A stretch of 61,968 nucleotides of DNA, from assembly GCA_017517865.1 (NCBI GenBank), contig JAFWYB010000028.1, positions 1 to 61,968 of the forward strand. Direction: 5' to 3'. The notes under the pieces are model-generated. The model saw nothing but the letters and a program-made list of their open reading frames with translations, searched no databases and was not told the origin of the DNA. This stretch comes from Clostridia bacterium. Lineage in GTDB: Bacteria > Bacillota > Clostridia > Oscillospirales > Acutalibacteraceae. How positions within the stretch are numbered: position 1 is the first letter of the stretch; every line of letters starts with the position of its first letter. Below are positions 38,371-50,680 of this stretch, piece by piece. Position numbers and translations under genes: made by a program.

Positions 38371-38399
38371 TTGACATTTGTATGTCTTTATGCTAAAAT
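38371..38399 (+). promoter_or_regulatory. Promoter of the Leu T-box operon
   Basis: TTGACA, 17 nt, TAAAAT, just before the T-box leader. Confidence 0.85.
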
Positions 38400-38406
38400 A
38401 CATTCC

Positions 38407-38682
38407 AATATCATAAATGCGTTGACGAAATTATGGATTTTCACATCCTGCTTTCAGAGAGTCGGTGGTTGGTGCAAGCCGATACAGAGTGAATTTTCAG
38501 CCTCGTTTCCGAGCAGGGTTGCTGAAGGCCTCGGTGCTGTGTAGGTGACCACGGATGCCCCGTTATCATGGCTAAGGACTTGTCAGAGTCCCGAAAAGTG
38601 ACCGCTTATGCGGTAAACAAGGTGGTACCGCGGATTTATGTTCGTCCTTGAAATTACTGGTGTAATTTCAAGGACTTTTTTT
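38407..38682 (+). promoter_or_regulatory. T-box leader, leucine specifier (CTC)
   Basis: A complete T-box riboswitch: Stem I with AGAGAGTCGGTGG, the specifier region at 38502-38504 (CTC, followed by G), the T-box sequence GGTGGTACCGCGG at 38621-38633, and a 13-bp terminator (38644-38656 with 38663-38675) ending in a run of T residues. Uncharged tRNA-Leu(GAG) would pair with CTC and favour antitermination, so downstream genes are expressed when leucine is short. The specifier was placed by aligning with the second leader at 43580. Confidence 0.9.
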
Positions 38683-38713
38683 AGTTACAAATAACCGTAA
38701 AGGAGCTTTTCAG

Positions 38714-40126
38714 ATGGAAAGATTATCAATTGCAGACATTACATTAAAGCAGGCATCAAAGAAAAACGATTATGCGCTCTCCTTCCGTGAGAAAATTGAA
38801 ATTGCCAAGCTGCTTGATAAGGTTAACGTATCAGTTATTGAGCTGCCCGCAATCGTTAAAGAAAAAACAGACGTGCTTCTTATAAAGTCGATTGCTTCGT
38901 GCATTAAAAACAGTACGCTCTCAGTTACCGTTAATCTTGAAGAAAAGGACGTACAGAGAGTTGCGGCTGCTCTTAAAGATGCCAAAAATCCGAGAATTCA
39001 GATTGCCGTACCTACCTCAACCGTTCAGATGGAGTATATCTGCAAGAAGAAGCCTCCTATGGTGCTTGAAATGATCACCGAGCTTGTTTCTGAGGCTAAA
39101 AAGCTTTGTGATGACGTTGAGTTTGTTGCGGACGATGCTACAAGAAGTGATGTTGAGTTCCTTTACAGTGCTGTTTCAGCCGCAGTTGAAGCAGGCGCAA
39201 CTTCGGTTACGCTCTGTGATACAGCCGAGGCTATGCTTGCAGATGAAATTGCTACCTTTGTTGATGACGTATATGCGAATGTACCTGCACTTGAAAGCAT
39301 TCCCGTCGGAATTCAGTGCAGCGATAAAATGAGTATGGCAGCAGCTTGCTGTGTTTCTGCAATCAAGGCAGGCGTAAGAGAAATAAAGGTTACATCGGTG
39401 CCCGGCACAGAGGCAGCCTCTCTTGCTCCGGTCTGTCAGGCAGTCTGTGCCCATTCAGATGAATTAGGTCTTGAAATCGGTGTTAAAATGACCGAGTTCA
39501 ACAGAATTTCCAAGCAGATTGAATGGATTGCAAACGCTAAAAGAACAAAGAATTCTGTCTTCGATTCAGCCTTCGGCTCACTTAATAACGATTTTGTTCT
39601 TAACGAGCACGATGATATTACAGAGGTTTCAAAGGCTGTTAAAAATCTCGGCTATGAGCTTTCGTCAGACGACCTCACCAAGGTTTATGAGGAATTCAAG
39701 CGTATCAGCCGAAAAAAGCCCGTCGGTGCAAAAGAGCTTGATGCTATCGTTGCTTCTGCCGCACTTCAGGTTCCTACAACATATTTTCTTGAATCCTACG
39801 TTATCAACAGCGGTAATATTATTCCCGCAACAGCAAACATCACGATGACCAGGAACGGAGAAAAGGTCAACGGCCTTGCAGGCGGTGACGGCCCGATTGA
39901 CGCCGCGTTTCTTGCAATAGAGCAGATTGTGGGTCATCACTATGAGCTTGACGATTTTCAGATCCAGTCTGTTACCGAGGGACAGGAGGCTATGGGTTCA
40001 GCTCTTGTTAAGCTTCGCAACGACGGTAAGCTTTACTCAGGTAAGGGTATTTCTACCGACATTATCGGTGCAAGCATAAGAGCCTATCTCAATGCACTTA
40101 ACAAAATAGTATATGAGGAGGCATAA
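38714..40126 (+). CDS. Isopropylmalate-synthase homologue with lost active site
   Basis: 470 residues, similar in plan to LeuA: a TIM barrel (about 1-290), a linker, and an intact C-terminal LeuA allosteric domain (about 355-467, ANITMTRNGEKVNGLAGGDG). In LeuA that domain binds leucine. The catalytic residues are gone: DITLKQ (residues 8-13) replaces the DTTLRDG motif, and QCS at 201-203 replaces the metal-binding HxH. DDATRSD near 140 is kept. It is thus probably not a synthase; a leucine-sensing or scaffold role is inferred. It is the first gene after the Leu T-box, and the acyl-CoA synthetase fusion starts 2 nt after its stop. Confidence 0.8.
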   Translation: MERLSIADITLKQASKKNDYALSFREKIEIAKLLDKVNVSVIELPAIVKEKTDVLLIKSIASCIKNSTLSVTVNLEEKDVQRVAAALKDAKNPRIQIAVPTSTVQMEYICKKKPPMVLEMITELVSEAKKLCDDVEFVADDATRSDVEFLYSAVSAAVEAGATSVTLCDTAEAMLADEIATFVDDVYANVPALESIPVGIQCSDKMSMAAACCVSAIKAGVREIKVTSVPGTEAASLAPVCQAVCAHSDELGLEIGVKMTEFNRISKQIEWIANAKRTKNSVFDSAFGSLNNDFVLNEHDDITEVSKAVKNLGYELSSDDLTKVYEEFKRISRKKPVGAKELDAIVASAALQVPTTYFLESYVINSGNIIPATANITMTRNGEKVNGLAGGDGPIDAAFLAIEQIVGHHYELDDFQIQSVTEGQEAMGSALVKLRNDGKLYSGKGISTDIIGASIRAYLNALNKIVYEEA

Positions 40127-40128
40127 AA

Positions 40129-42648
40129 ATGATTAAGCTTTCTTTTTCAATTAACGGATGGAAGGATTACTCCTGGCAGGATTTCACTCAGCTCGCTTCT
40201 GAAATCGGCTTTAAGGGTATTGAGCTTCACAATGCTATGGAAAGCTCGCTGACAGAAAAGGACGGCCCTTTTCATAAGTATAATTCAGCTGCGACAATCC
40301 GTAAGCTTGCCGATGAGGGTATTTCAGTTCCCTGTGTTGACATAAGCAAGGATATATCAATGGAAAGCACTGCGAAAAACGCTGAATATATAAGAAAATA
40401 TATTGATTTTGCCGCAAGCATAAAGGTACCCTATGTAAGAGTATACGCATCAGGTGCAGGGGTTAACGCAAAGCAGAATGTTATCGATTGCCTCAGGCAG
40501 GTTGTTGATTATGCCGAAGAGAAAAGAGTAACGGTTCTTATCGAAACAGTCGGTATGTTCGCAGATACCCTTGAGCTCAGAAATGTTCTTATGGAGTTTG
40601 CCTGCGATAACCTTGCCGCTCTCTGGGATATATACCATACCTTCTGTGAGCAAAGGGAGGATACCGAAACTACCATCACCAACCTCGGTGCATATATAAG
40701 ACACGTTCATCTTAAGGACTCTGCCGAATCTGACGGCGGAAGAGAGTATTGCCTTATTGGTGAGGGTGAGGTGCCTGTTGATATCGTTATCAACGCTCTT
40801 TCATCGGTTAACTATAATGGCTTTATTTCACTTGAGTGGAATCCGGACTGGATGCCCGACCTTACTGAAATTGACGTTATTTTTGCTCATTTTGTTCAGT
40901 ATATGCATAAGTTCCAGGCTCCTTCAAGAAAGAAGAGCCATCTTTACAAAAACAAGAGAGGAACGGGCGAATACGTATGGAAAAAGGAGGCTCTTATTGA
41001 AAAGACCTTCTCACAGGTGCTCGACAAAATGGTTGAAGAATTTCCTGACCAGTATGCCTTCAAATACACAACCCTTGATTATACAAGAACCTATGCAGAA
41101 TTCCGTGACGATGTTGACGAATGCTGCAGAGCCTTCCTTGCTATGGGCGTAAAGCCCGGCTCACACATTGCTGTATGGGCTACAAATATTCCTCAGTGGT
41201 ATATTGCATTCTGGGCAGCTACTAAAATCGGTGCCGTTCTTGTGACGGTTAATACAGCTTATAAAATTCACGAGCTTGAGTACCTTCTCAAACAGTCGGA
41301 CACACATACGCTTATTCTTGTTGAGAGCTACCGTGATTCTCACTATTCAGACATCATAGGTGAGCTTTGCCCCGAGCTTGAAAGCACAAAGGCGGGCAGC
41401 CCTCTTCACTGCCGCAGACTTCCCTTCCTGAGAAACGTCATTACGGTCGGCTTCAGGAAAAAAGGCTGTCTTACCTGGGAGGAGGCAATTGAAAGAGCTG
41501 AAAATATACCTGTTGAAGAGGTTTACAGAATCGCTGCAGGTGTTGACCCCAACGATGTATGCAATATGCAGTATACTTCAGGTACTACCGGTTTCCCGAA
41601 GGGCGTTATGCTCACTCACTATAATGTTGTAAATAACGGTAAGTGTATCGGTGACAGAATGGACCTTTCCACCGCTGACCGTATGATGATTCAGGTTCCT
41701 ATGTTCCACTGCTTCGGTATGGTGCTTGCTATGACCGCTTCAATGACACACGGCGCAACACTTTATCCTCTTCCTTATTTTACACCCAAGCCTTCGCTTG
41801 CCTGCATAAATCAGGAAAAAATTACCGCATTCCACGGTGTTCCCACAATGTTTATCGCTATGCTTGAGCATCCCGATTTTGAAAAAACCGACTTCTCACA
41901 TATGAGAACAGGTATTATGGCAGGCTCACCCTGTCCTATTGCAACAATGAAGGATGTTGTTGAAAAGATGAATATGAAGGAGATAACCATCGTTTACGGT
42001 CAGACAGAGGCTTCACCCGGTTGTACTATGAGCTCGACAGACGATTCAATTGAGGTCCGTGTAGGTACTGTGGGCCGTGCACTTCCCGAAATTGAGTGTA
42101 AAATTGTTGATCCCGAAACAGGGGAGGATCTTCCCGTAGGTCAGATAGGCGAATTTGTTGCAAGAGGCTACAACATTATGAAGGGCTATTATAAAATGCC
42201 CAAGGCAACGTCGTCTGCAATTGATGCGGACGGCTGGCTTCACACCGGCGACCTCGCATGTAAGACCGAAGACGGTAATTACAAGATCACCGGCAGACTA
42301 AAGGATATGATTATCCGCGGCGGTGAAAATATCTATCCTAAGGAAATTGAAGAGTTCATCTACACTCATCCCAAGGTAAGCGACGTTCAGGTTATAGGCG
42401 TGCCTGATGAGCAGTACGGTGAAGAAATTGCAGCTTGTATCATTCTTAAAGAGGGTGAAACAATGACTGAGGCTGAAATGAAGAAGTTTGTGCTTGAGCA
42501 TATGGCTAAGCATAAGGTACCCAGATATGTTGATTTTGTTGACTCCTTCCCGATGAATGCAGCAGGTAAAATACTCAAGTATAAAATGAGAGAAAATGCA
42601 ATTGAGAAATACGGTCTTCAGAAGGCAGACTCGGTTGAAACCGCTTAA
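40129..42648 (+). CDS. Fusion of xylose-isomerase-like TIM barrel and acyl-CoA synthetase
   Basis: 839 residues. Residues 1-265 form a sugar-isomerase/AP-endonuclease-2-type TIM barrel (FKGIELHNAM, LIETVGM, ALWDIYHTF, HVHLKDS, SLEWNPDW) with plausible metal ligands Glu, Asp, His and Glu. Residues ~290-839 are a complete AMP-forming acyl-CoA synthetase: YTSGTTGFPKG (about 482), YGQTEASPG, GWLHTGD and the C-terminal catalytic Lys in NAAGKILKYK. The ligase part looks like a medium/short-chain FadD. Located after the Leu T-box, it could activate isovalerate for leucine synthesis (inference). The joined domains are an unusual pairing. Confidence 0.85.
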   Translation: MIKLSFSINGWKDYSWQDFTQLASEIGFKGIELHNAMESSLTEKDGPFHKYNSAATIRKLADEGISVPCVDISKDISMESTAKNAEYIRKYIDFAASIKVPYVRVYASGAGVNAKQNVIDCLRQVVDYAEEKRVTVLIETVGMFADTLELRNVLMEFACDNLAALWDIYHTFCEQREDTETTITNLGAYIRHVHLKDSAESDGGREYCLIGEGEVPVDIVINALSSVNYNGFISLEWNPDWMPDLTEIDVIFAHFVQYMHKFQAPSRKKSHLYKNKRGTGEYVWKKEALIEKTFSQVLDKMVEEFPDQYAFKYTTLDYTRTYAEFRDDVDECCRAFLAMGVKPGSHIAVWATNIPQWYIAFWAATKIGAVLVTVNTAYKIHELEYLLKQSDTHTLILVESYRDSHYSDIIGELCPELESTKAGSPLHCRRLPFLRNVITVGFRKKGCLTWEEAIERAENIPVEEVYRIAAGVDPNDVCNMQYTSGTTGFPKGVMLTHYNVVNNGKCIGDRMDLSTADRMMIQVPMFHCFGMVLAMTASMTHGATLYPLPYFTPKPSLACINQEKITAFHGVPTMFIAMLEHPDFEKTDFSHMRTGIMAGSPCPIATMKDVVEKMNMKEITIVYGQTEASPGCTMSSTDDSIEVRVGTVGRALPEIECKIVDPETGEDLPVGQIGEFVARGYNIMKGYYKMPKATSSAIDADGWLHTGDLACKTEDGNYKITGRLKDMIIRGGENIYPKEIEEFIYTHPKVSDVQVIGVPDEQYGEEIAACIILKEGETMTEAEMKKFVLEHMAKHKVPRYVDFVDSFPMNAAGKILKYKMRENAIEKYGLQKADSVETA

Positions 42649-42665
42649 AAATCAAATATATTTAA

Positions 42666-42692
42666 AGTGCTTCGCTTGTCGGGGCACTTTGC
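42666..42692 (+). terminator. Weak hairpin after the synthetase fusion gene
   Basis: AAGTGC and GGCACTT pair around an 11-12 nt loop, with GCTTTG after it. The T-run is poor, so partial read-through into the amidohydrolase gene is likely. Confidence 0.4.
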
Positions 42693-42710
42693 TTTGAAAA
42701 GAGTGATAAA

Positions 42711-43505
42711 ATGAATTGTCCTATTATAGACTGTCACTGTCATGTCTATCCCGAAAAAATTGCAGAAAAGGCAGTTGAAAGCATCGGAGCTTTTTATGAT
42801 ATTGAAATGACCTTTGACGGTAAATATTCTACCCTTATAAAAAGTATGGAAAAAAACGGTGTCAGCCACGGAATAGTTTTTTCTGTTGCAACAACGCCGC
42901 ATCAGGTTCATTCCATAAACAGTTTCATCGCTGAAACGGTGAGAAACAGCGGGGGAAAGCTCTCGGGGCTCGGTACGCTTCATCCGGATTCCGCGGATAT
43001 CGAAAAGGATGTCGAAGAGATAATTTCTCTCGGTCTGAAGGGCGTAAAGCTTCACCCGGATTTTCAGAAATTCAGAATTGATGCTCCCGAGTGCGAAAAA
43101 ATATATGCACTTTGCGAAGGCAGGCTTCCCGTTCTTCTTCATACGGGAGATACCAGATTCGATTTTTCAAATCCTGAAAACGTTGTGCCTGTGTTAGAAA
43201 AGTATAAAAATCTAACGGTTATTGGTGCCCATTTCGGCGGTTGGTCCTGCTGGAAAAAGGCGGCTCAAATGCTTCACGGATATGAAAATTTTTATGTTGA
43301 CTGTTCATCCACCTTTCATTGGCTGCCCTCTGAGCAGGTAAAAGAGCTTATAAGAATTTACGGTGCAGATAAGGTTCTTTTCGGCACAGACTTCCCTATG
43401 TGGAGCCACGAAAAGGAGCTTGAATCCTTTTTAAAAATGTATCTTACATCTGAAGAAGAAAAGAAAATATTATATGAGAATGCCGTAAAGCTTTTTTCTT
43501 TATAA
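42711..43505 (+). CDS. Amidohydrolase family protein
   Basis: 264 residues. A metal-dependent TIM-barrel hydrolase of the amidohydrolase_2 (ACMSD-like) group: DCHCHVYP near the N-terminus, GVKLHPDFQ, LLHTGD, GAHFGG and LFGTDFPMW hold the His and Asp metal ligands. Family members are hydrolases or decarboxylases of small carboxylic acids; the substrate is not clear. It is the last gene before the Ile T-box and may belong to the Leu T-box operon by read-through. The start ATG has a weak AAAGAG site. Confidence 0.85.
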   Translation: MNCPIIDCHCHVYPEKIAEKAVESIGAFYDIEMTFDGKYSTLIKSMEKNGVSHGIVFSVATTPHQVHSINSFIAETVRNSGGKLSGLGTLHPDSADIEKDVEEIISLGLKGVKLHPDFQKFRIDAPECEKIYALCEGRLPVLLHTGDTRFDFSNPENVVPVLEKYKNLTVIGAHFGGWSCWKKAAQMLHGYENFYVDCSSTFHWLPSEQVKELIRIYGADKVLFGTDFPMWSHEKELESFLKMYLTSEEEKKILYENAVKLFSL

Positions 43506-43531
43506 AATGTGTAATTTTTTATAAAAATCTA

Positions 43532-43560
43532 TTGACTTTACCTTCTTAAAGTGCTAAAAT
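43532..43560 (+). promoter_or_regulatory. Promoter of the Ile T-box operon
   Basis: TTGACT, 17 nt, TAAAAT. Confidence 0.85.
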
Positions 43561-43579
43561 AACCTCAATTTAATATTAA

Positions 43580-43853
43580 AGGCCGTGACGAAGACGGAAG
43601 AAGTCAGGTTTTCACAGAGAGTCGGCGGTGCTGTAAAGCCGATAAAACGAGATTTCATTTCCCATCACTTCCGAGCCGAAGGTCCGAAAGCTATATGGTT
43701 AGTAGATACCTTCCGTGATTGCTGCGTTAATGCATAGGGCTTGTCAGAGCTTGAGGTGGCAGATATTATCTGCAATTTGAGTGGTACCGCGGGTATTATA
43801 AACTTAGTTTATTGCTCGTCTCAAAGTTATCTTTGGGGCGAGTTATTTTTTTG
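43580..43853 (+). promoter_or_regulatory. T-box leader, isoleucine specifier (ATC)
   Basis: Stem I with AGAGAGTCGGCGG, specifier ATC at 43664-43666 followed by ACTTCCGAGC, the T-box sequence GTGGTACCGCGG at 43781-43792, and a terminator (CTCGTCTCAAAG at 43815-43826 with 43831-43842, then TTATTTTTTT). Uncharged tRNA-Ile(GAT) would promote read-through when isoleucine is short. The alignment with the first leader is good on both sides of the specifier. Confidence 0.9.
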
Positions 43854-43887
43854 ATTAAAATCTTGTAAAGACAGGAGGCAAAAAGCA

Positions 43888-46161
43888 ATGGAAATGAACA
43901 GAATCGACAGCGAACTCAGAGAGGTGGCCTTCCGAATTAAGGAAATGCGAGAAATTGCAGGCTATACACCTGAAGAAATGGCAGAAAAGGTTGATCTGAG
44001 TGTTGAGGAATACATTTCATACGAATCGGGTGCTGACGATTTACCTTTCTCCTTTATTCATAAGTGTGCGAAAGTTTTCGGCATAGGCAAAACCGACCTT
44101 CTTGAGGGCCGAAGCAGTAATCTTTCATCCTATACCGTTACAAGAAAGGGCCAGGGCAAGGTTATTTCTAAAGATGATGAAGAAGGTATAGAAATCAATC
44201 ATCTTGCTCTTCTTTTCAGAAATAAGCTCGCTGAGCCGTATCTTGCAAAATATGAATACAAGCAGGAACTTCAGAATAAAGAAATTGCTACGGTAACACA
44301 TAACGGTCAGGAATTTGACTATGTTATTTCCGGTAAGCTCAAGGTACGTGTAGGTAAGCACACAGAAATACTTGAAGCGGGCGACAGCATTTATTACAGA
44401 AGCTCAACACCCCACGGTATGATTGCCGTTGACGGTGAGGACTGCAACTTCCTTGCGGTTGTTATCGCCGGTGAGGATACCGTTGAAAAACAGGATATCA
44501 GGGAAAGCAAGGTTACGAAAACAACGCACAACCTGGTTGTTGAAAAATTTGTTGAAACAACCGAGGACGAAAACGGCTCACTTCAGGAAATCAGCTTTAA
44601 AAATGAAGATAAGTTTAACTTTGCATATGACGTTGTTGATGTTATTGCGGATAAATATCCCGATAAGCTTGCTATGCTCCACATTTCAAACGATATGACA
44701 GAGAGACGCTTTACCTTCAAGGATATCAAGAAGGAGTCTGCCCGTGCAGCCAACTATTTCAAGAGTCTTGGTATTGAAAAGGGCGACAGAGTTATGCTTG
44801 TTCTTAAACGTCATTATCAGTTCTGGATCTGTGCTCTTGCTCTTCATAAGCTCGGCGCGGTTATTATTCCTGCAACAAATCAGCTTGTTGTTCACGATTT
44901 TGAATACCGCTTCGAGGCTGCCGGGGTTAAGGCTATTGTCTGCACTTCAGACGGTGAAACCGCAAATCAGGTTGACGAAGCCTGCAAGAAGTACGACGGA
45001 CTCAGGGTTAAGGTTATTGTCAACGGTGAAAAAGAGGGTTGGCACAGCTTTGACAAGGAATATAAGCTCTTCAGAAGCATATTTGACAGAGAAGAGGACA
45101 GTGCCTGCGGTGATGACTCAATGCTTATGTTCTTCACATCGGGAACAACGGGCTATCCCAAAATTGCCTGCCACTCCTTCAAGTATGCCCTCGGCCACTT
45201 TATTACCGCTAAATATTGGCACAACGTTCAGCCTACCGATTTACACCTTACTATTTCCGATACGGGCTGGGGCAAGGCTCTCTGGGGCAAGTTCTACGGT
45301 CAGTGGATGAGCGAGGGTGCAGTGTTCACCTATGACTTTGACCGCTTTGATGCATCTAAGATTCTTCCTATGTTTGCTAAATATAACATCACTACATTCT
45401 GTGCACCTCCTACAATGTACAGAATGCTTATCAAGGAAGATCTTTCCAAGTATGATCTTTCTTCAATCAGATATGCAACAACTGCAGGCGAAGCACTCAA
45501 CCCCGAGGTGTTCTATCAGTTCCAGAAAGCTACGGGTCTTGTAATTATGGAGGGCTTCGGTCAGACAGAAACAACTCTCACAATCGGTAATCTTATCGGT
45601 ACTACTCCCAAGCCCGGAGCTATGGGTAAGCCTATTCCCGGCTATGATATTGCTATTGTTGACCCTGACGGAAAACCGTGTCCCGTTGGCGAAACCGGCG
45701 AAATTGTTGTAAGAACCGATAAAAAGATTCCCTGCGGTCTCTTTAAAGGCTATTTCCGCGATGAAGAGAAAACAGCAGAAGTCTGGTATGACGGAATGTA
45801 TCATACAGGTGATACCGCATGGTGCGATGAAGACGGATATTATTGGTATGTAAGCCGTATTGATGATGTTATCAAGTCATCAGGCTACCGTATCGGTCCC
45901 TTCGAAATTGAAAACGTTATAATGGAGCTTCCTTATGTTCTCGAGTGCGGTGTTTCTGCCGCTCCCGATGAAATGAGAGGTCAGGTTGTAAAGGCAAGTG
46001 TTGTCCTAACTAAGGGCACAGAGCCGACTGAAGAGCTTAAGAAAGAAATTCAGAACTATGTTAAGAAAAACACAGCTCCCTATAAATACCCGAGAATTGT
46101 TGTATTCAGAGATGAGCTTCCCAAGACAATCAGCGGAAAAATTCAGAGAAACAAGCTTTGA
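43888..46161 (+). CDS. Fusion of HTH, cupin and acyl-CoA synthetase
   Basis: 757 residues. Residues ~10-67 are an XRE-type helix-turn-helix (AFRIKEMREIAGYTPEEMAEKV); ~110-195 a cupin (YVISGKLKVRVG, LEAGDSIYYRSSTPHG), the layout of XRE-cupin regulators. From ~205 to the end is an acyl-CoA synthetase of the medium-chain (ACSM) type: FFTSGTTGYPK, GFGQTET, YHTGDTAW and the catalytic Lys in TISGKIQRNKL. The product could activate 2-methylbutyrate for isoleucine synthesis (inference) and may also bind DNA or sense an acyl ligand. Located right after the Ile T-box; AGGAGG before the ATG. Confidence 0.88.
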   Translation: MEMNRIDSELREVAFRIKEMREIAGYTPEEMAEKVDLSVEEYISYESGADDLPFSFIHKCAKVFGIGKTDLLEGRSSNLSSYTVTRKGQGKVISKDDEEGIEINHLALLFRNKLAEPYLAKYEYKQELQNKEIATVTHNGQEFDYVISGKLKVRVGKHTEILEAGDSIYYRSSTPHGMIAVDGEDCNFLAVVIAGEDTVEKQDIRESKVTKTTHNLVVEKFVETTEDENGSLQEISFKNEDKFNFAYDVVDVIADKYPDKLAMLHISNDMTERRFTFKDIKKESARAANYFKSLGIEKGDRVMLVLKRHYQFWICALALHKLGAVIIPATNQLVVHDFEYRFEAAGVKAIVCTSDGETANQVDEACKKYDGLRVKVIVNGEKEGWHSFDKEYKLFRSIFDREEDSACGDDSMLMFFTSGTTGYPKIACHSFKYALGHFITAKYWHNVQPTDLHLTISDTGWGKALWGKFYGQWMSEGAVFTYDFDRFDASKILPMFAKYNITTFCAPPTMYRMLIKEDLSKYDLSSIRYATTAGEALNPEVFYQFQKATGLVIMEGFGQTETTLTIGNLIGTTPKPGAMGKPIPGYDIAIVDPDGKPCPVGETGEIVVRTDKKIPCGLFKGYFRDEEKTAEVWYDGMYHTGDTAWCDEDGYYWYVSRIDDVIKSSGYRIGPFEIENVIMELPYVLECGVSAAPDEMRGQVVKASVVLTKGTEPTEELKKEIQNYVKKNTAPYKYPRIVVFRDELPKTISGKIQRNKL

Positions 46162-46233
46162 TATTATAGTCAAAATAAACAAAGTAAAATGATATAAAAG
46201 CACTAATTTCTGCGAAAATAAAACGGATTTCTG

Positions 46234-46262
46234 TTGAAAAAAAGAGAATAGTGTTTTATAAT
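46234..46262 (+). promoter_or_regulatory. Promoter before the ATPase/vor/ilvE genes
   Basis: TTGAAA, 17 nt, TATAAT, 30 nt upstream of the ATPase gene. No terminator precedes it, so the downstream genes may be read both from here and from the Ile T-box. Confidence 0.75.
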
Positions 46263-46291
46263 TAAAGGAACGGAAAAACGGAGGTGTGCTT

Positions 46292-46954
46292 ATGGCTGAA
46301 AAGCGAATAACTCTTTTTGCAGGCCATTACGGCAGCGGAAAAACCAACATAGCCGTAAACTACGCCTTCCGTTTAAAAAAAGCGGGTTATCCTACAGTTA
46401 TTGCCGACCTTGATATTGTCAATCCCTATTTCCGCACCAAAGATAGTGAGCTTGAGCTTAAAGAACAGGGGATAGACCTTATCTGCTCTGAGTTTGCAAA
46501 CACAAATCTCGATATTCCGTCGCTTCCTCAGACAACGTACCGTGTTGTCCACGATAAAAGCACATACGCTGTTATGGATATAGGCGGCGACGATGCCGGC
46601 GCGGTTGCTCTCGGTAGGTTTGCTGATGCGATTGCGGCCGAAGACAATTATGAAATGCTTTTTGTGCTCAATTTTTTCAGACCGCTTACGAGAACCGCTG
46701 AGGAAGCCTACACCGTACTTAAAGAAATCGAGTACGCTTCAAAGCTTAAGTTCACAGGTATTGTAAATAACTCAAATCTCGGTGAGCTTACTACGGCTGA
46801 AGATGTTGTTTCTACATTTGCTGAAGCTGACAGACTCTGCAAAATGAGCGGTCTGCCTTTGAAATTTGTCAGCGCTGAAAAAAGTGTGTGCGAAATGCTC
46901 GCCGACAGGTCGGAAAACATTTTCCCGCTGGAGCTTCAAAAGAAATATTATTAA
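46292..46954 (+). CDS. P-loop ATPase of the MinD/ParA-like superfamily
   Basis: 220 residues. It starts with a P-loop (LFAGHYGSGKTNIAVNYA) and a Walker-like DLDIVNPYFRTKD, then MDIGGDDAGA, the layout of small SIMIBI ATPases. Relatives assemble or insert metal centres or position proteins. No partner is fixed, but it precedes four genes for a ferredoxin-linked oxidoreductase by 15 nt, so a maturation or regulation role for that enzyme is possible. ATG 46292 follows GGAGGTG. Confidence 0.75.
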   Translation: MAEKRITLFAGHYGSGKTNIAVNYAFRLKKAGYPTVIADLDIVNPYFRTKDSELELKEQGIDLICSEFANTNLDIPSLPQTTYRVVHDKSTYAVMDIGGDDAGAVALGRFADAIAAEDNYEMLFVLNFFRPLTRTAEEAYTVLKEIEYASKLKFTGIVNNSNLGELTTAEDVVSTFAEADRLCKMSGLPLKFVSAEKSVCEMLADRSENIFPLELQKKYY

Positions 46955-46969
46955 ATTGGAGGTATGTTT

Positions 46970-47176
46970 ATGCCAAAGGTTACGTTTAATACGGATATGT
47001 GTAAGGGCTGCGGACTTTGTGTTATCGCCTGCCCGAAGAAAATCCTTGTTATCGCAAAGGATAAAATCAATGCAAAGGGTCATTCACCTGCAGAAATGAC
47101 AGATGCTGAAAAGTGTATCGGTTGTGCTTTCTGTGCAACGATGTGCCCCGACTGCATAATCAAGGTTGAAAAGTGA
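46970..47176 (+). CDS. 2-oxoacid:ferredoxin oxidoreductase, ferredoxin subunit
   Basis: 68 residues with two [4Fe-4S] motifs, CKGCGLCVIACP and CIGCAFCATMCP, as in the delta (VorD/KorD) subunit. It passes electrons between the catalytic subunits and cellular ferredoxin. ATG 46970 is better spaced from GGAGG than 46964. The alpha subunit gene begins 10 nt downstream. Confidence 0.93.
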   Translation: MPKVTFNTDMCKGCGLCVIACPKKILVIAKDKINAKGHSPAEMTDAEKCIGCAFCATMCPDCIIKVEK

Positions 47177-47186
47177 GGTAATGAAA

Positions 47187-48251
47187 ATGGCTGAAAAAGT
47201 ACTTATGAAGGGTAATGAGGCTATTGCAGAGGCTGCTATTCTCGCAGGCTGCCGTCATTACTTCGGTTATCCCATCACTCCGCAGACTGAAATTGCCGCT
47301 TATATGGCAAAGAAGATGCCTAAAATCGGCGGATGCTTCCTTCAGGCTGAAAGTGAGGTTGCAGCAATCAATATGGTTTACGGCGTTGCATCAACAGGTA
47401 AAAGGGTTATGACATCATCCTCAAGCCCCGGAATTTCACTTAAGGCAGAGGGTCTCTCATACCTTGCCGGCAGTGATCTTCCCGCGCTCGTTGTCAACGT
47501 ACAGCGTGGCGGTCCCGGTCTCGGCGGTATCCAGCCCTCACAGGCTGACTACTTCCAGGCAACAAAGGGTTGCGGTCACGGTGACTACAGAATGATTGTT
47601 CTTGCACCTTCATCAGTTCAGGAAATGGCAAGCCTTACGGTCAAGGGCTTTGATCTTGCCGATAAATACAGAATGACTTCGATGATTCTTGCTGACGGTA
47701 CAATGGGTCAGATGATGGAGCCCGTTTCTCTTGAAGAGGCAGTTGTCGGCACTTATGACAAGTCCTGGGCTGTTACAGGCACAAAGTGCGAAAGAAAGAA
47801 AAACATCATTAACTCACTTTCACTTGTTCCTGAGGAGCTTGAAAAGCTTAACTTCGAAAGATTTGAAAGATACAAGGCCATCGAAGAGAATGAGGTTATG
47901 TGTGAAGAATATATGATGGACGATGCTGAAATCTGCGTTGCCGCTTTCGGTATTGCCGCACGTGTTGCCAAGAATGCAATCGTGAAGGCAAGAGAAGAGG
48001 GCATTAAGGTTGGTATGATTCGTCCCATCACACTCTGGCCCTTCCCCAAGAAGGTGTTTGAGGAAGCTGCCGATAAGGTTAAGAGCTTTATTTCCGTTGA
48101 GCTTTCAATGGGTCAGATGATTGAAGATATCAGACTTTATACGAAGTCAAAGAAGCCTATTACTCTTTGCAACAGAGTGGGCGGTATGATTCCTTCACCC
48201 GAGCAGGTGCTTGAATCAATCAGAAAAGCAAATGAAGGAGGTAACGAATAA
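47187..48251 (+). CDS. vorB: 2-oxoacid:ferredoxin oxidoreductase, alpha subunit (VorB-type)
   Basis: 354 residues. N-terminal pyrimidine-binding domain (MKGNEAIAEAAILAGCRHYFGYPITPQTEI), then a transketolase C-terminal-like domain (VAAFGIAARVAKNAI). Length and motifs match the alpha subunit of branched-chain (valerate-type) or 2-oxoglutarate oxidoreductases. With subunits beta, gamma and delta it interconverts acyl-CoA, CO2 and reduced ferredoxin with a 2-oxoacid. The branched-chain assignment rests on the neighbouring ilvE and Ile T-box. ATG 47187 follows GAGG. It overlaps the next gene by one base. Confidence 0.9.
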   Translation: MAEKVLMKGNEAIAEAAILAGCRHYFGYPITPQTEIAAYMAKKMPKIGGCFLQAESEVAAINMVYGVASTGKRVMTSSSSPGISLKAEGLSYLAGSDLPALVVNVQRGGPGLGGIQPSQADYFQATKGCGHGDYRMIVLAPSSVQEMASLTVKGFDLADKYRMTSMILADGTMGQMMEPVSLEEAVVGTYDKSWAVTGTKCERKKNIINSLSLVPEELEKLNFERFERYKAIEENEVMCEEYMMDDAEICVAAFGIAARVAKNAIVKAREEGIKVGMIRPITLWPFPKKVFEEAADKVKSFISVELSMGQMIEDIRLYTKSKKPITLCNRVGGMIPSPEQVLESIRKANEGGNE

Positions 48252-49006
48252 TGGTAGTATTTGACAAACCCAAGTCACTTTGCGATGTACCCTTCCATTA
48301 CTGCCCCGGCTGTACTCACGGTATTATTCACCGCCTTGTTGCTGAGGTTATCGATGAGCTCGGCATTGAGGGTAAAACAATCGGTGTTGCCCCCGTTGGC
48401 TGCTCTGTACTTGCATATAACTATTTTGCCTGCGATATGGTAGAAGCTGCTCACGGACGAGCTCCTGCCGTTGCAACAGGTCTCAAGCGTTCCGATCCGG
48501 ATAATCACATCGTCTTTACATATCAGGGTGACGGTGACCTTGCTTCAATCGGTACTGCTGAAACAGTGCATGCAGCAGCAAGAAACGAAAACATCACCAT
48601 TATTTTCGTAAACAATGCTATTTACGGTATGACGGGCGGTCAGATGGCTCCCACATCACTTCCCGGTCAGGTTACACAGACCTCACCCTACGGCAGAGAC
48701 ACAAGTCACTGCGGCTTCCCAGTAAAGGTTTCAGAAATGCTTTCACAGCTTGACGGTGCAGGCTATATCGAAAGAGTTGCCGTTAACAACGTCAAGAATG
48801 TCAGAAACGCCAAGAAAGCAATCAAAAAGGCTTTTCAGAATCAGATTGACAAGAAGGGCTTTTCACTTGTTGAGGTTATTTCCACCTGTCCCACAAACTG
48901 GGGTATGACTCCCGAAAAAGCTCTCGAGTGGGTTGATGAAAAGATGATTCCTTACTATCCTCTCGGTGTATATAAGGACAGAGACGCTGAAAAGGAGGCA
49001 GAATAA
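48251..49006 (+). CDS. vorA: 2-oxoacid:ferredoxin oxidoreductase, beta subunit (TPP-binding)
   Basis: 251 residues. It binds thiamine diphosphate: HYCPGCTHGIIHRLVAE near the N-terminus, GVAPVGCSV, and the TPP/Mg motif GDGDLASIG with NNAIYGMTGGQMAPTS. Together with the alpha subunit it forms the active site. It starts on the last base of the alpha subunit gene and the gamma gene starts on its last base, so the three are translationally coupled. Confidence 0.93.
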   Translation: MVVFDKPKSLCDVPFHYCPGCTHGIIHRLVAEVIDELGIEGKTIGVAPVGCSVLAYNYFACDMVEAAHGRAPAVATGLKRSDPDNHIVFTYQGDGDLASIGTAETVHAAARNENITIIFVNNAIYGMTGGQMAPTSLPGQVTQTSPYGRDTSHCGFPVKVSEMLSQLDGAGYIERVAVNNVKNVRNAKKAIKKAFQNQIDKKGFSLVEVISTCPTNWGMTPEKALEWVDEKMIPYYPLGVYKDRDAEKEAE

Positions 49007-49542
49007 TGAGCACTACACAGATTCTTATTGCAGGCTTCGGCGGTCAGGGCGTACTTTTTGCAGGTAAGCTTCTTGCATATAAGGGCCTTCTTGCCGATAA
49101 GCAGGTTTCATGGCTTCCCTCCTACGGTCCCGAAATGCGCGGCGGCACAGCTAACTGCAGCGTTATAATCAGCGACGAGCCTGTTGGTTCACCCATCGTT
49201 TCCAATCCCGATGTTCTTGTTGCGATGAATCTTCCCTCACTTGAAAAGTATGAGAAGGACGTTGTTTCGGGCGGTATTATCATCGTTGATTCAACACTCA
49301 TCGGCAAAAAAGTTGAAAGAGACGACGTAACAACTTATTACGTACCTGCAACAAAAATGGCTAAGGACGAAGGCTTTGCCACTCTCGCAAATATGATTCT
49401 TATGGGTAAGCTTATGAAAGCTTGCGACGCTCTTTCCTTCGACGGAATTGAAGCAACCGTACAGAAGGTTGTGCCTCCCAAAAAGGCAAATCTTATTGAT
49501 ATCAATATCAAAGCAATTAAAACCGGTTACGATTTTGAATAA
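49006..49542 (+). CDS. vorC: 2-oxoacid:ferredoxin oxidoreductase, gamma subunit
   Basis: 178 residues. A typical gamma domain ([50 protein letters not shown]) that helps bind CoA. Full length. It is followed 19 nt later by the aminotransferase gene. The a-b-g-d set is complete, so the enzyme should be functional. Confidence 0.93.
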
Positions 49543-49561
49543 TATTTAAGAGGTGTTATTT

Positions 49562-50629
49562 ATGGAAATAAAGATTACAAAAACAACTGCACCCAAGGCT
49601 AAGCCCGCTAAGGGAGAAAAGCTCGGCTTCGGTCACATTTTCACAGACCATATGTTCGTAATGAACTATACAGAGGGCAAGGGCTGGCACGATGCAAGAA
49701 TCGAGCCCTATCAGAACCTTTCACTTGCACCCAGTGCAATGGTTTTCCATTACGGTCAGGAAATGTTTGAGGGCCTTAAGGCATACAGAGGCGCAGACGA
49801 TAAGATTTATCTTTTCCGTCCCGATATGAACGCCAAGAGAGCTAATGCTTCAAACGAAAGACTCTGCATCCCCGAAATTCCCGAGGAGATGTTTGTTGAA
49901 GCTGTTAAGGCTGTTGTTGACATTGACAGAGATTGGGTACCCGCTGACGAAGGTACATCTCTTTACATCCGCCCCTTTGTAATTGCAACCGATGAATTCC
50001 TCGGTGTTGCTCCCTCAAAGACATATCTCTTCATCGTTATTCTTTCACCCTCAGGTGCATATTATGAGAGCGGTCTTGCTCCCGTCGGTATCTGGATTGA
50101 GGATGACTATGTAAGAGCTGTAAAGGGCGGTATGGGCTTTGCTAAGACCGGCGGTAACTATGCTGCTTCTCTTATTGCACAGGTTAAAGCTCACGATGCA
50201 GGCTATTCACAGGTTCTCTGGCTTGACGGTGTTGAAAGAAAGTATATCGAAGAAGTCGGTGCCATGAACATTATGTTCAAGATTAACGGCAAGGTTATCA
50301 CTCCCGCTCTTAACGGCAGCATCCTTCCCGGTATCACACGTAACTCCATTATCAACGTATGCAAGGCATGGGGCTACGAGGTTGAGGAAAGAAGAATCTC
50401 TGTTGACGAGCTTGTTGAGGCTGCAAAGAACGGCACTCTCGAGGAAGTGTGGGGTACAGGTACGGCAGCTGTTGTTTCACCCGTCGGTAAGCTTCGTTAT
50501 ATGGACGATGTTATGACAATCGGTGACGGCGGTATCGGCGAACTCACGCAGAAGCTTTATGATGAGCTTACAGGCATCCAGTGGGGTAAGAGAGAAGATC
50601 CCTACGGCTGGAGAGTTGAAGTTAAATAA
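49562..50629 (+). CDS. ilvE: Branched-chain amino acid aminotransferase
   Basis: 355 residues. A fold-type IV PLP enzyme: FHYGQEMFEGLKAYRG, LYIRPFVIATDEFLGV, FAKTGGNYAASL, QVLWLDGVERKYIEEVGAMN (Lys forms the Schiff base with PLP) and the late GTAAVVSPVG. It transfers amino groups between glutamate and the 2-oxoacids of Val, Leu and Ile. Coming last after the vor genes, it would complete the route from acyl-CoA to amino acid. ATG 49562 follows GAGGTG; a strong terminator follows. Confidence 0.95.
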   Translation: MEIKITKTTAPKAKPAKGEKLGFGHIFTDHMFVMNYTEGKGWHDARIEPYQNLSLAPSAMVFHYGQEMFEGLKAYRGADDKIYLFRPDMNAKRANASNERLCIPEIPEEMFVEAVKAVVDIDRDWVPADEGTSLYIRPFVIATDEFLGVAPSKTYLFIVILSPSGAYYESGLAPVGIWIEDDYVRAVKGGMGFAKTGGNYAASLIAQVKAHDAGYSQVLWLDGVERKYIEEVGAMNIMFKINGKVITPALNGSILPGITRNSIINVCKAWGYEVEERRISVDELVEAAKNGTLEEVWGTGTAAVVSPVGKLRYMDDVMTIGDGGIGELTQKLYDELTGIQWGKREDPYGWRVEVK

Positions 50630-50637
50630 TTGGTTTT

Positions 50638-50680
50638 GCAACACATCTGTAAAAACAGACAGATGTGTTGCATTTGCTTT
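50638..50680 (+). terminator. Terminator after ilvE
   Basis: Perfect 13-bp stem GCAACACATCTGT/ACAGATGTGTTGC, then ATTTGCTTTT. Confidence 0.88.

Follow-up and report, generated by a model that had tools for sequence, protein, structure and literature searches.

Why would two acyl-CoA ligase genes standing close together each lie below a tRNA-sensing T-box leader, one specific for leucine and the other for isoleucine, next to genes for a 2-oxoacid:ferredoxin oxidoreductase (Vor) and a branched-chain aminotransferase (IlvE)? This arrangement spans positions 38371-50672 of the window, the whole 61,968-nucleotide stretch of DNA analyzed here (contig JAFWYB010000028.1 of the Acutalibacteraceae assembly GCA_017517865.1, the source genome), and all of its features lie on the + strand. 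We conclude that the cluster is very probably an isoacid-based module making leucine and isoleucine from isovalerate and 2-methylbutyrate, with the substrates, the direction of flux and the roles of the LeuA-like protein (pLeuA) and of the TIM domain described below being those that we infer from sequence.

In the proposed route, the leucine-labeled ligase (TIM-ACS) would convert isovalerate to its CoA ester, and the isoleucine-labeled ligase (XCup-ACS) would do the same for 2-methylbutyrate. Vor, using reduced ferredoxin and CO2 to carboxylate these esters, would then give 2-oxoisocaproate and 2-oxo-3-methylvalerate, which IlvE would transaminate. Each ligase would be turned on by the uncharged tRNA of its own product, through the Leu or the Ile leader, and Vor and IlvE would be common to both arms and expressed from a separate promoter. 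pLeuA, the first gene of the leucine operon, would encode a dead 2-isopropylmalate synthase, most likely acting as the ligase's partner in sensing leucine. Where relatives are missing ilvC as well, valine would be made in addition, from isobutyrate, by way of a further XCup-ACS that has a Val leader. The first-pass annotation of the window had proposed one ligase for leucine and one for isoleucine, a division supported by the leaders, the gaps in the genome, the exclusion between pLeuA and LeuC, the labels in relatives and the kinship of XCup-ACS to 3ETC.

Leader 1 (38413..38652) scores 106.7 bits against the Rfam model RF00230, above its gathering score of 93, and leader 2 (43576..43826) scores 82.8 bits, under that threshold, with an E value of 1.3e-18 over the full length of the model. 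In both leaders the base helix of stem I sets the specifier register, giving CUC (Leu, 38502-38504) followed by G in the first and AUC (Ile, 43664-43666) followed by A in the second, and intrinsic terminators are found alongside the covariance matches (38644..38675, with 14 pairs and then a T run; 43814..43843, from the motif scan). The earlier reading of an ATC specifier ahead of an acyl-CoA synthetase is thereby confirmed. The CTC specifier of leader 1 also stands, but the gene directly below it, which had been overlooked, is a relative of LeuA, and the synthetase fusion comes second.

The source genome holds 12 T-boxes, two in the window and ten elsewhere, and the latter served as a control. 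Nine of the ten have a diagnostic downstream gene (valS, cysS, pheS, hisS-aspS, metG, thrS, trpS, alaS and trpB), and the specifier, read by eye and not blind, matches the gene in 9/9. For cysS, and for aspS after hisS, the matching gene is the second downstream of the leader, and several readings needed a one-base shift, judged from the helix. An automatic specifier script read both leaders of the window and agrees with the gene in three of the nine controls (valS, hisS-aspS and thrS). Since the by-eye control was unblinded and the script agreed in only these three, the main weight of the specifier claim falls on conservation in relatives.

Relatives of pLeuA were confirmed in at least 587 stretches, mostly from ruminant and other gut metagenome assemblies; among the matches listed, the gene is also present in Bittarella massiliensis (the named isolate GD6, L207) and in a small number of bins whose names place them in other groups. 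Eighty of these stretches were kept as named-contig loci. A first leader scan, covering 69 loci, gave 49 Leu specifiers (46 of them CTC), 8 others and 12 without a leader, and by eye its four 'Ser' readings are CTC read one base over. In the final scan, from which identical upstream regions had been removed, the regions ahead of pLeuA gave 81 Leu, 8 other and 52 none (n=141), those ahead of XCup-ACS 35 Ile, 19 Val, 4 other and 14 none (n=72), and those ahead of TIM-ACS genes without pLeuA 7 Leu, 1 other and 15 none (n=23). The scan is imperfect, as the other amino acids assigned to 8 of the 141 pLeuA and 4 of the 72 XCup-ACS regions indicate, and some register slips were recognized by eye. The remaining 1112 genes of the same loci yielded 11 assorted leader matches, and none was found ahead of IlvE or of the NTPase gene that heads the Vor operon in 44 upstream regions scanned.

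These leaders bear directly on a catabolic interpretation, according to which IlvE and Vor would oxidize amino acids to acyl-CoA and the ligases would work in reverse. In its favor, Vor and IlvE are reversible enzymes. Against it, AMP-forming ligases run toward CoA esters, T-boxes turn genes on under shortage of an amino acid, which is the reverse of a degradative need, and catabolism would leave the gaps in the genome unexplained. We regard this interpretation as extremely unlikely.

The first-pass annotation had called for a whole-genome check for leuBCD, ilvC and ilvD, which is answered in part: IlvB, IlvN, IlvC and IlvD are present at one location in the source genome, and the LeuC profile finds no match there, the aconitase family giving a single match in a 774-amino-acid frame. 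Neither LeuA nor CimA was found, since apart from pLeuA itself the HMGL family has a single match here, an oxaloacetate-decarboxylase-like protein (the searches did not extend to LeuB and LeuD), and no threonine dehydratase was found in the PALP family, which gives two cysK, trpB and thrC (non-PALP dehydratases were not searched). With neither an IlvA of PALP type nor CimA found, we found no usual source of 2-oxobutyrate. Replacement of the classical route entails missing leucine and isoleucine genes in the same genome, and LeuC, LeuA, CimA and PALP-type IlvA were not found. Leucine and isoleucine thus seem not to be made classically, and they are the same two amino acids whose leaders govern the ligases. 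Since ilvC and ilvD are present, valine is probably made by the classical route in this organism.

The same pattern recurs across the order. In a set of 297 genomes at least 85% complete, pLeuA occurs in 61 (13 families) and true LeuC in 179. One fragment that is ambiguous with true LeuA (G141:C7) was dropped before the pLeuA count; a sole match with an E value of 1e-76 to 1e-95 (41 genomes) was scored as aconitase, and one of 1e-116 or better as LeuC. LeuC is found in 4 of the 61 pLeuA genomes against 175 of the 236 others, with a Fisher p of 5e-23 that, like any such value here, overstates independence because the genomes are related. IlvC is found in 8/61 pLeuA genomes, and 53/61 have neither LeuC nor IlvC; four, the source genome included, have IlvC only. 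An assembly gap as the cause of LeuC loss was set aside, given the recurrence over 297 genomes.

Vor is present in 58/61 pLeuA genomes, compared with 122/236 others. In two of the exceptions, G074 and G230, which belong to one genus, pLeuA and TIM-ACS are present without a Vor match. Directly beyond TIM-ACS, both encode a pyruvate:ferredoxin oxidoreductase (PFOR)-type protein, scoring 1699 and 1695 bits against TIGR02176, and G230 shows that single PFOR only. With this neighbor in place, the idea that Vor is dispensable for the leucine operon was set aside.

What, then, is the LeuA relative below leader 1? pLeuA (38714..40126, 470 amino acids) matches the Pfam HMGL-like family at 133.7 bits and the LeuA_dimer domain PF08502 at 106.9 bits, against a threshold of 24.9, and scores far under every cut-off of the NCBIfam LeuA models. 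In all 16 pLeuA rows from the kin of the source genome, the TLRDG and HxH motifs are lost and the FAHEAGIHQHG region is gone, whereas the eight LeuA-family rows of the same alignment retain these motifs or close variants. We take TLRDG, HxHND and the FAHEAGIHQHG region to be the metal-binding and catalytic motifs of 2-isopropylmalate synthase. A working LeuA was set aside on account of this loss. By contrast with the catalytic part, 35 of the 51 invariant columns of an alignment of 16 pLeuA sequences fall within positions 339-470, the C-terminal domain. Most likely, pLeuA would be a pseudo-enzyme that still senses leucine.

In Geobacter, a LeuA gene lies under a Leu T-box and the same GAG-anticodon leucine tRNA is used (PMC2494555, PMC2700814). 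The two systems are alike in that a protein with LeuA fold and LeuA_dimer domain is encoded by the first gene after a Leu T-box. pLeuA differs in the absence of the catalytic motifs, and it is followed by a ligase gene instead of leuBCD.

That ligase, TIM-ACS (40129..42648, 839 amino acids), is a proposed isovaleryl-CoA synthetase in which a TIM barrel (Pfam AP_endonuc_2) is fused to an AMP-forming acyl-CoA ligase (AMP-binding, AMP-binding_C). In one set of loci pLeuA adjoins it in all 54 that contain pLeuA, and among the 80 named-contig loci it does so in 78, the remaining two contigs ending at that point. Relatives of TIM-ACS without pLeuA (L048, L049, L153-L174) occur in genomes with and without LeuC and sometimes have a Leu leader. 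In the TIM domain, E139, D167, H194 and E236, assigned by eye, are presumably metal residues. Of 159 sequences, 63 retain all four, namely 38/134 with pLeuA in the locus and 25/25 without; the other 96 have at least one altered, every one of them with pLeuA, and in 36 of these 96 the only change is E139 to K. A required enzymatic function of the TIM domain was weighed against these changes. The third gene of the operon, at 42711..43505, encodes an Amidohydro_2 family protein (Pfam) that is often kept at this position in the neighborhoods of relatives; it frequently follows TIM-ACS, yet it is missing from many carriers.

The constant pairing of pLeuA with TIM-ACS wherever the contig continues, the amidohydrolase that often follows, the 63 intact TIM domains and the way in which the leucine operon takes the place of LeuC could all be read differently: pLeuA, TIM-ACS and the amidohydrolase might together make a leucine precursor de novo by a new route, in which the LeuA fold and the TIM domain still act on a CoA-activated intermediate and no external isovalerate is required. 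Such a route is hard to reconcile with the loss of metal ligands and acetyl-CoA region from pLeuA in 16/16 rows and with the TIM residue changes in 96 sequences, all from loci that contain pLeuA. Moreover, the Ile and Val ligases have the same layout and the same Vor-IlvE partners without such extra enzymes, and Leu leaders also occur on relatives without pLeuA (7 of the 23 scored). We therefore consider the de novo route unlikely, and return to activation of isovalerate by TIM-ACS as the preferred reading.

XCup-ACS (43888..46161, 757 amino acids), the proposed 2-methylbutyryl-CoA synthetase, is a helix-turn-helix (HTH)-cupin-acyl-CoA ligase fusion by Pfam. Many related clusters have a pair of XCup-ACS genes, one under an Ile leader followed by one under a Val leader. 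In a tree of 89 rows built by a quick method (38 Ile, 25 Val and 26 unlabeled; labels set by hand to Ile for L040 and L106 and to Val for L146), the Val-labeled ligases other than L135 fall in one clade of 37 (24 Val, 13 unlabeled, 0 Ile; Shimodaira-Hasegawa-like approximate likelihood ratio support 95), which nests inside the Ile-labeled rows. Every Ile row (39/39) has Gly at position 462, directly behind the DTGW motif, where every Val row (24/24) has Ala. This segment presumably lines the acyl pocket, so that the change from Gly to Ala would narrow the pocket to fit the smaller isobutyrate. IlvC is missing from all 11 pLeuA genomes in which a Val-clade ligase was seen (8 by label, 3 by place in the tree). 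The outlying L135 ligase (L135:4816-6576 (-), genome G075) is an acyl-CoA ligase under a Val-specifier leader, located beside pLeuA and outside the XCup-ACS family tree.

The best match of the ligase part of XCup-ACS in the Protein Data Bank is 3etc, at 642.5 bits. This structure is that of MacsMa, for which 2-methylbutyrate is the preferred acid (PMC10455477). Against the NCBIfam model of MbcS (NF047394) XCup-ACS scores 453 bits, below the cut-off of 850, and is a relative only; MbcS accepts 2-methylbutyrate and isobutyrate, and isovalerate poorly (PMC10026030). Ile and Val labels are thus found on a ligase family whose known members use the matching acids, and the poor use of isovalerate by MbcS fits the placement of the Leu label on a different ligase family. 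Apart from this kinship, XCup-ACS is distinguished from MacsMa and MbcS by its HTH-cupin fusion, its Ile or Val T-box and its Vor and IlvE neighbors.

MbcS, the nearest NCBIfam model, functions in making branched fatty acids in Staphylococcus aureus (PMC10026030), and by this analogy the ligases might salvage branched acids as primers of membrane lipids, with Vor and IlvE merely interconverting acyl-CoA and amino acids. This explanation predicts neither the LeuC, LeuA and IlvA gaps, nor the operon's exclusion of LeuC and IlvC, nor separate ligases with Leu-, Ile- and Val-specific leaders, and appears very unlikely to us. Amino acid synthesis from the activated acids remains our preferred reading.

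The genes that would complete the route lie in the third of three transcription units found across 38371-50672 by a motif scan of the window; each unit has a promoter-like site as well as a hairpin resembling a terminator. The first unit comprises the Leu T-box, pLeuA, TIM-ACS and the amidohydrolase (promoter-like site 38371..38399, TTGACA-17-TAAAAT, 11/12 consensus positions), and the second the Ile T-box and XCup-ACS (43532..43560, TTGACT-17-TAAAAT). The third has its own site at 46234..46262 (TTGAAA-17-TATAAT, 11/12 positions), in agreement with the separate vor/ilvE promoter of the first-pass annotation, and ends in a hairpin at 50637..50672. Across the window the scan returned 29 promoter-like sites, where 20.6 were expected from shuffles, and 14 terminators, where 11.8 were expected. 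Given these totals, the claim rests on where the motifs lie and how good they are rather than on how many there are.

The third unit runs from an NTPase gene through VorD, VorB, the thiamine pyrophosphate (TPP) and gamma subunits to IlvE. Its Vor set is complete as first described: profile matches and motifs identify VorD, B, A and C, that is, the ferredoxin, alpha, beta and gamma subunits, together with IlvE. VorD (46970..47176) has two CxxCxxC motifs; VorB (47181..48251; the frame in the open reading frame list begins at 47166 and the ATG is at 47181) scores 542 bits against NF005507, over the cut-off of 399; the TPP-binding beta subunit (48251..49006) matches TPP_enzyme_C; and the gamma subunit (49006..49542) matches POR at 134.8 bits. 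IlvE (49562..50629, with the listed frame beginning at 49553 and the ATG at 49562) scores 512 bits against NF009897, whose cut-off is 307. In having all subunits, with VorB over a curated cut-off, this enzyme resembles known Vor; its place beside IlvE differs in seeming biosynthetic rather than peptide-fermenting. The gene that heads the unit (46286..46954) encodes a P-loop NTPase with weak ParA/CbiA matches, and in the neighborhoods of relatives this NTPase heads Vor operons across families.

Several observations, in addition to the relatedness of the genomes noted above, weigh against the proposed module. pLeuA and LeuC occur together in G101, G173, G217 and G304, and G003, from the genus of the source genome, likewise has both. 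Two further members of that genus, G006 and G008, encode the classical operon but not TIM-ACS, and G008 retains the Ile ligase and Vor despite that operon; an aconitase-family fragment in G013, from the set of relatives (75 bits, in a 393-amino-acid frame), possibly marks another genome of this genus that departs from the pattern by keeping LeuC. On the Eggerthellaceae contig L250, pLeuA and TIM-ACS adjoin ilvBN and a leuBCD set, TIM-ACS relatives without pLeuA are found in LeuC-positive genomes, and G153, which is 85% complete, has pLeuA and no Vor match. In a further 55 of the 297 genomes pLeuA, LeuC and IlvC are all absent, so the absence of LeuC does not by itself call for this isoacid system. 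The source assembly is 95.6% complete, and LeuB, LeuD and non-PALP dehydratases lay outside its search. In the XCup-ACS tree, counting unlabeled rows as a separate group means that the Val label has to change 10 times and the Ile label 6 times, and the Val-labeled ligase L135 is a distant long-branch outlier. Finally, the scheme leaves the roles of the TIM domain, the amidohydrolase and the NTPase unaccounted for.

A wider formulation would see in these leaders a T-box code, with one ligase per branched-chain amino acid, a shared ferredoxin-driven carboxylase and a dead LeuA that persists solely as a leucine sensor and restrains its ligase, the whole replacing leuABCD and, in most carriers, ilvC, with the leucine arm governed by both tRNA and pLeuA and with an extension to phenylalanine possible. 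We hold this formulation tentatively, at somewhat less than an even chance. The tenth control T-box of the source genome (L092:6098-6347 (-), G000:C24) has a Phe specifier, UUC, after a one-base shift. The gene below it (L092:4694-6010 (-)) is phenylacetate-CoA ligase-like, with 535 bits against TIGR02155 (cut-off 646), and a gene for a TPP enzyme of IorA size (616 amino acids) shares the contig, which suggests that phenylalanine could be made from phenylacetate by like logic. Elsewhere in the genome, L280:5085-9416 (-) (G000:C63) encodes an AMP-ligase (555 amino acids) and POR-type alpha and gamma subunits with a 247-amino-acid protein between them; none of the 12 T-boxes is located there.

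The chemistry has long been known. Rumen bacteria have a requirement, recognized from the 1960s, for branched volatile acids, and tracer work tied these acids to leucine, isoleucine and valine; carboxylation of isovalerate and 2-methylbutyrate in rumen bacteria was described by Allison and co-workers between 1962 and 1969 (PMC7356843). What the proposed route has in common with that work is the overall chemistry, in which a branched acid is carboxylated and aminated to an amino acid, and the setting in ruminant gut bacteria. Those were whole-cell studies, whereas here we present candidate genes read from sequence, with a separate ligase for every amino acid, control through tRNA sensing, and the classical genes lost. 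A 2020 Prevotella paper still describes formation of these amino acids from branched acids, as the reverse reaction, as not proven (PMC7709123). A gut reconstruction lists leuABCD and ilv genes (PMC9026213), and GapMind covers isoleucine from propionate, with 'leucine' as such missing from its main text. In a limited check of open-licence literature, we found neither a gene set nor a regulatory code of this kind, no ligases like these under T-box control and no inactive LeuA.

If correct, our reading would supply genes for the branched-acid requirement of rumen bacteria, together with an RNA label that can be read for each amino acid, and the requirement for branched acids would become predictable from the genome. 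Annotation by classical genes alone may then wrongly call such bacteria auxotrophs. The ligase pairs would also provide material for a clean study of specificity, and pLeuA a pseudo-enzyme with a testable function.

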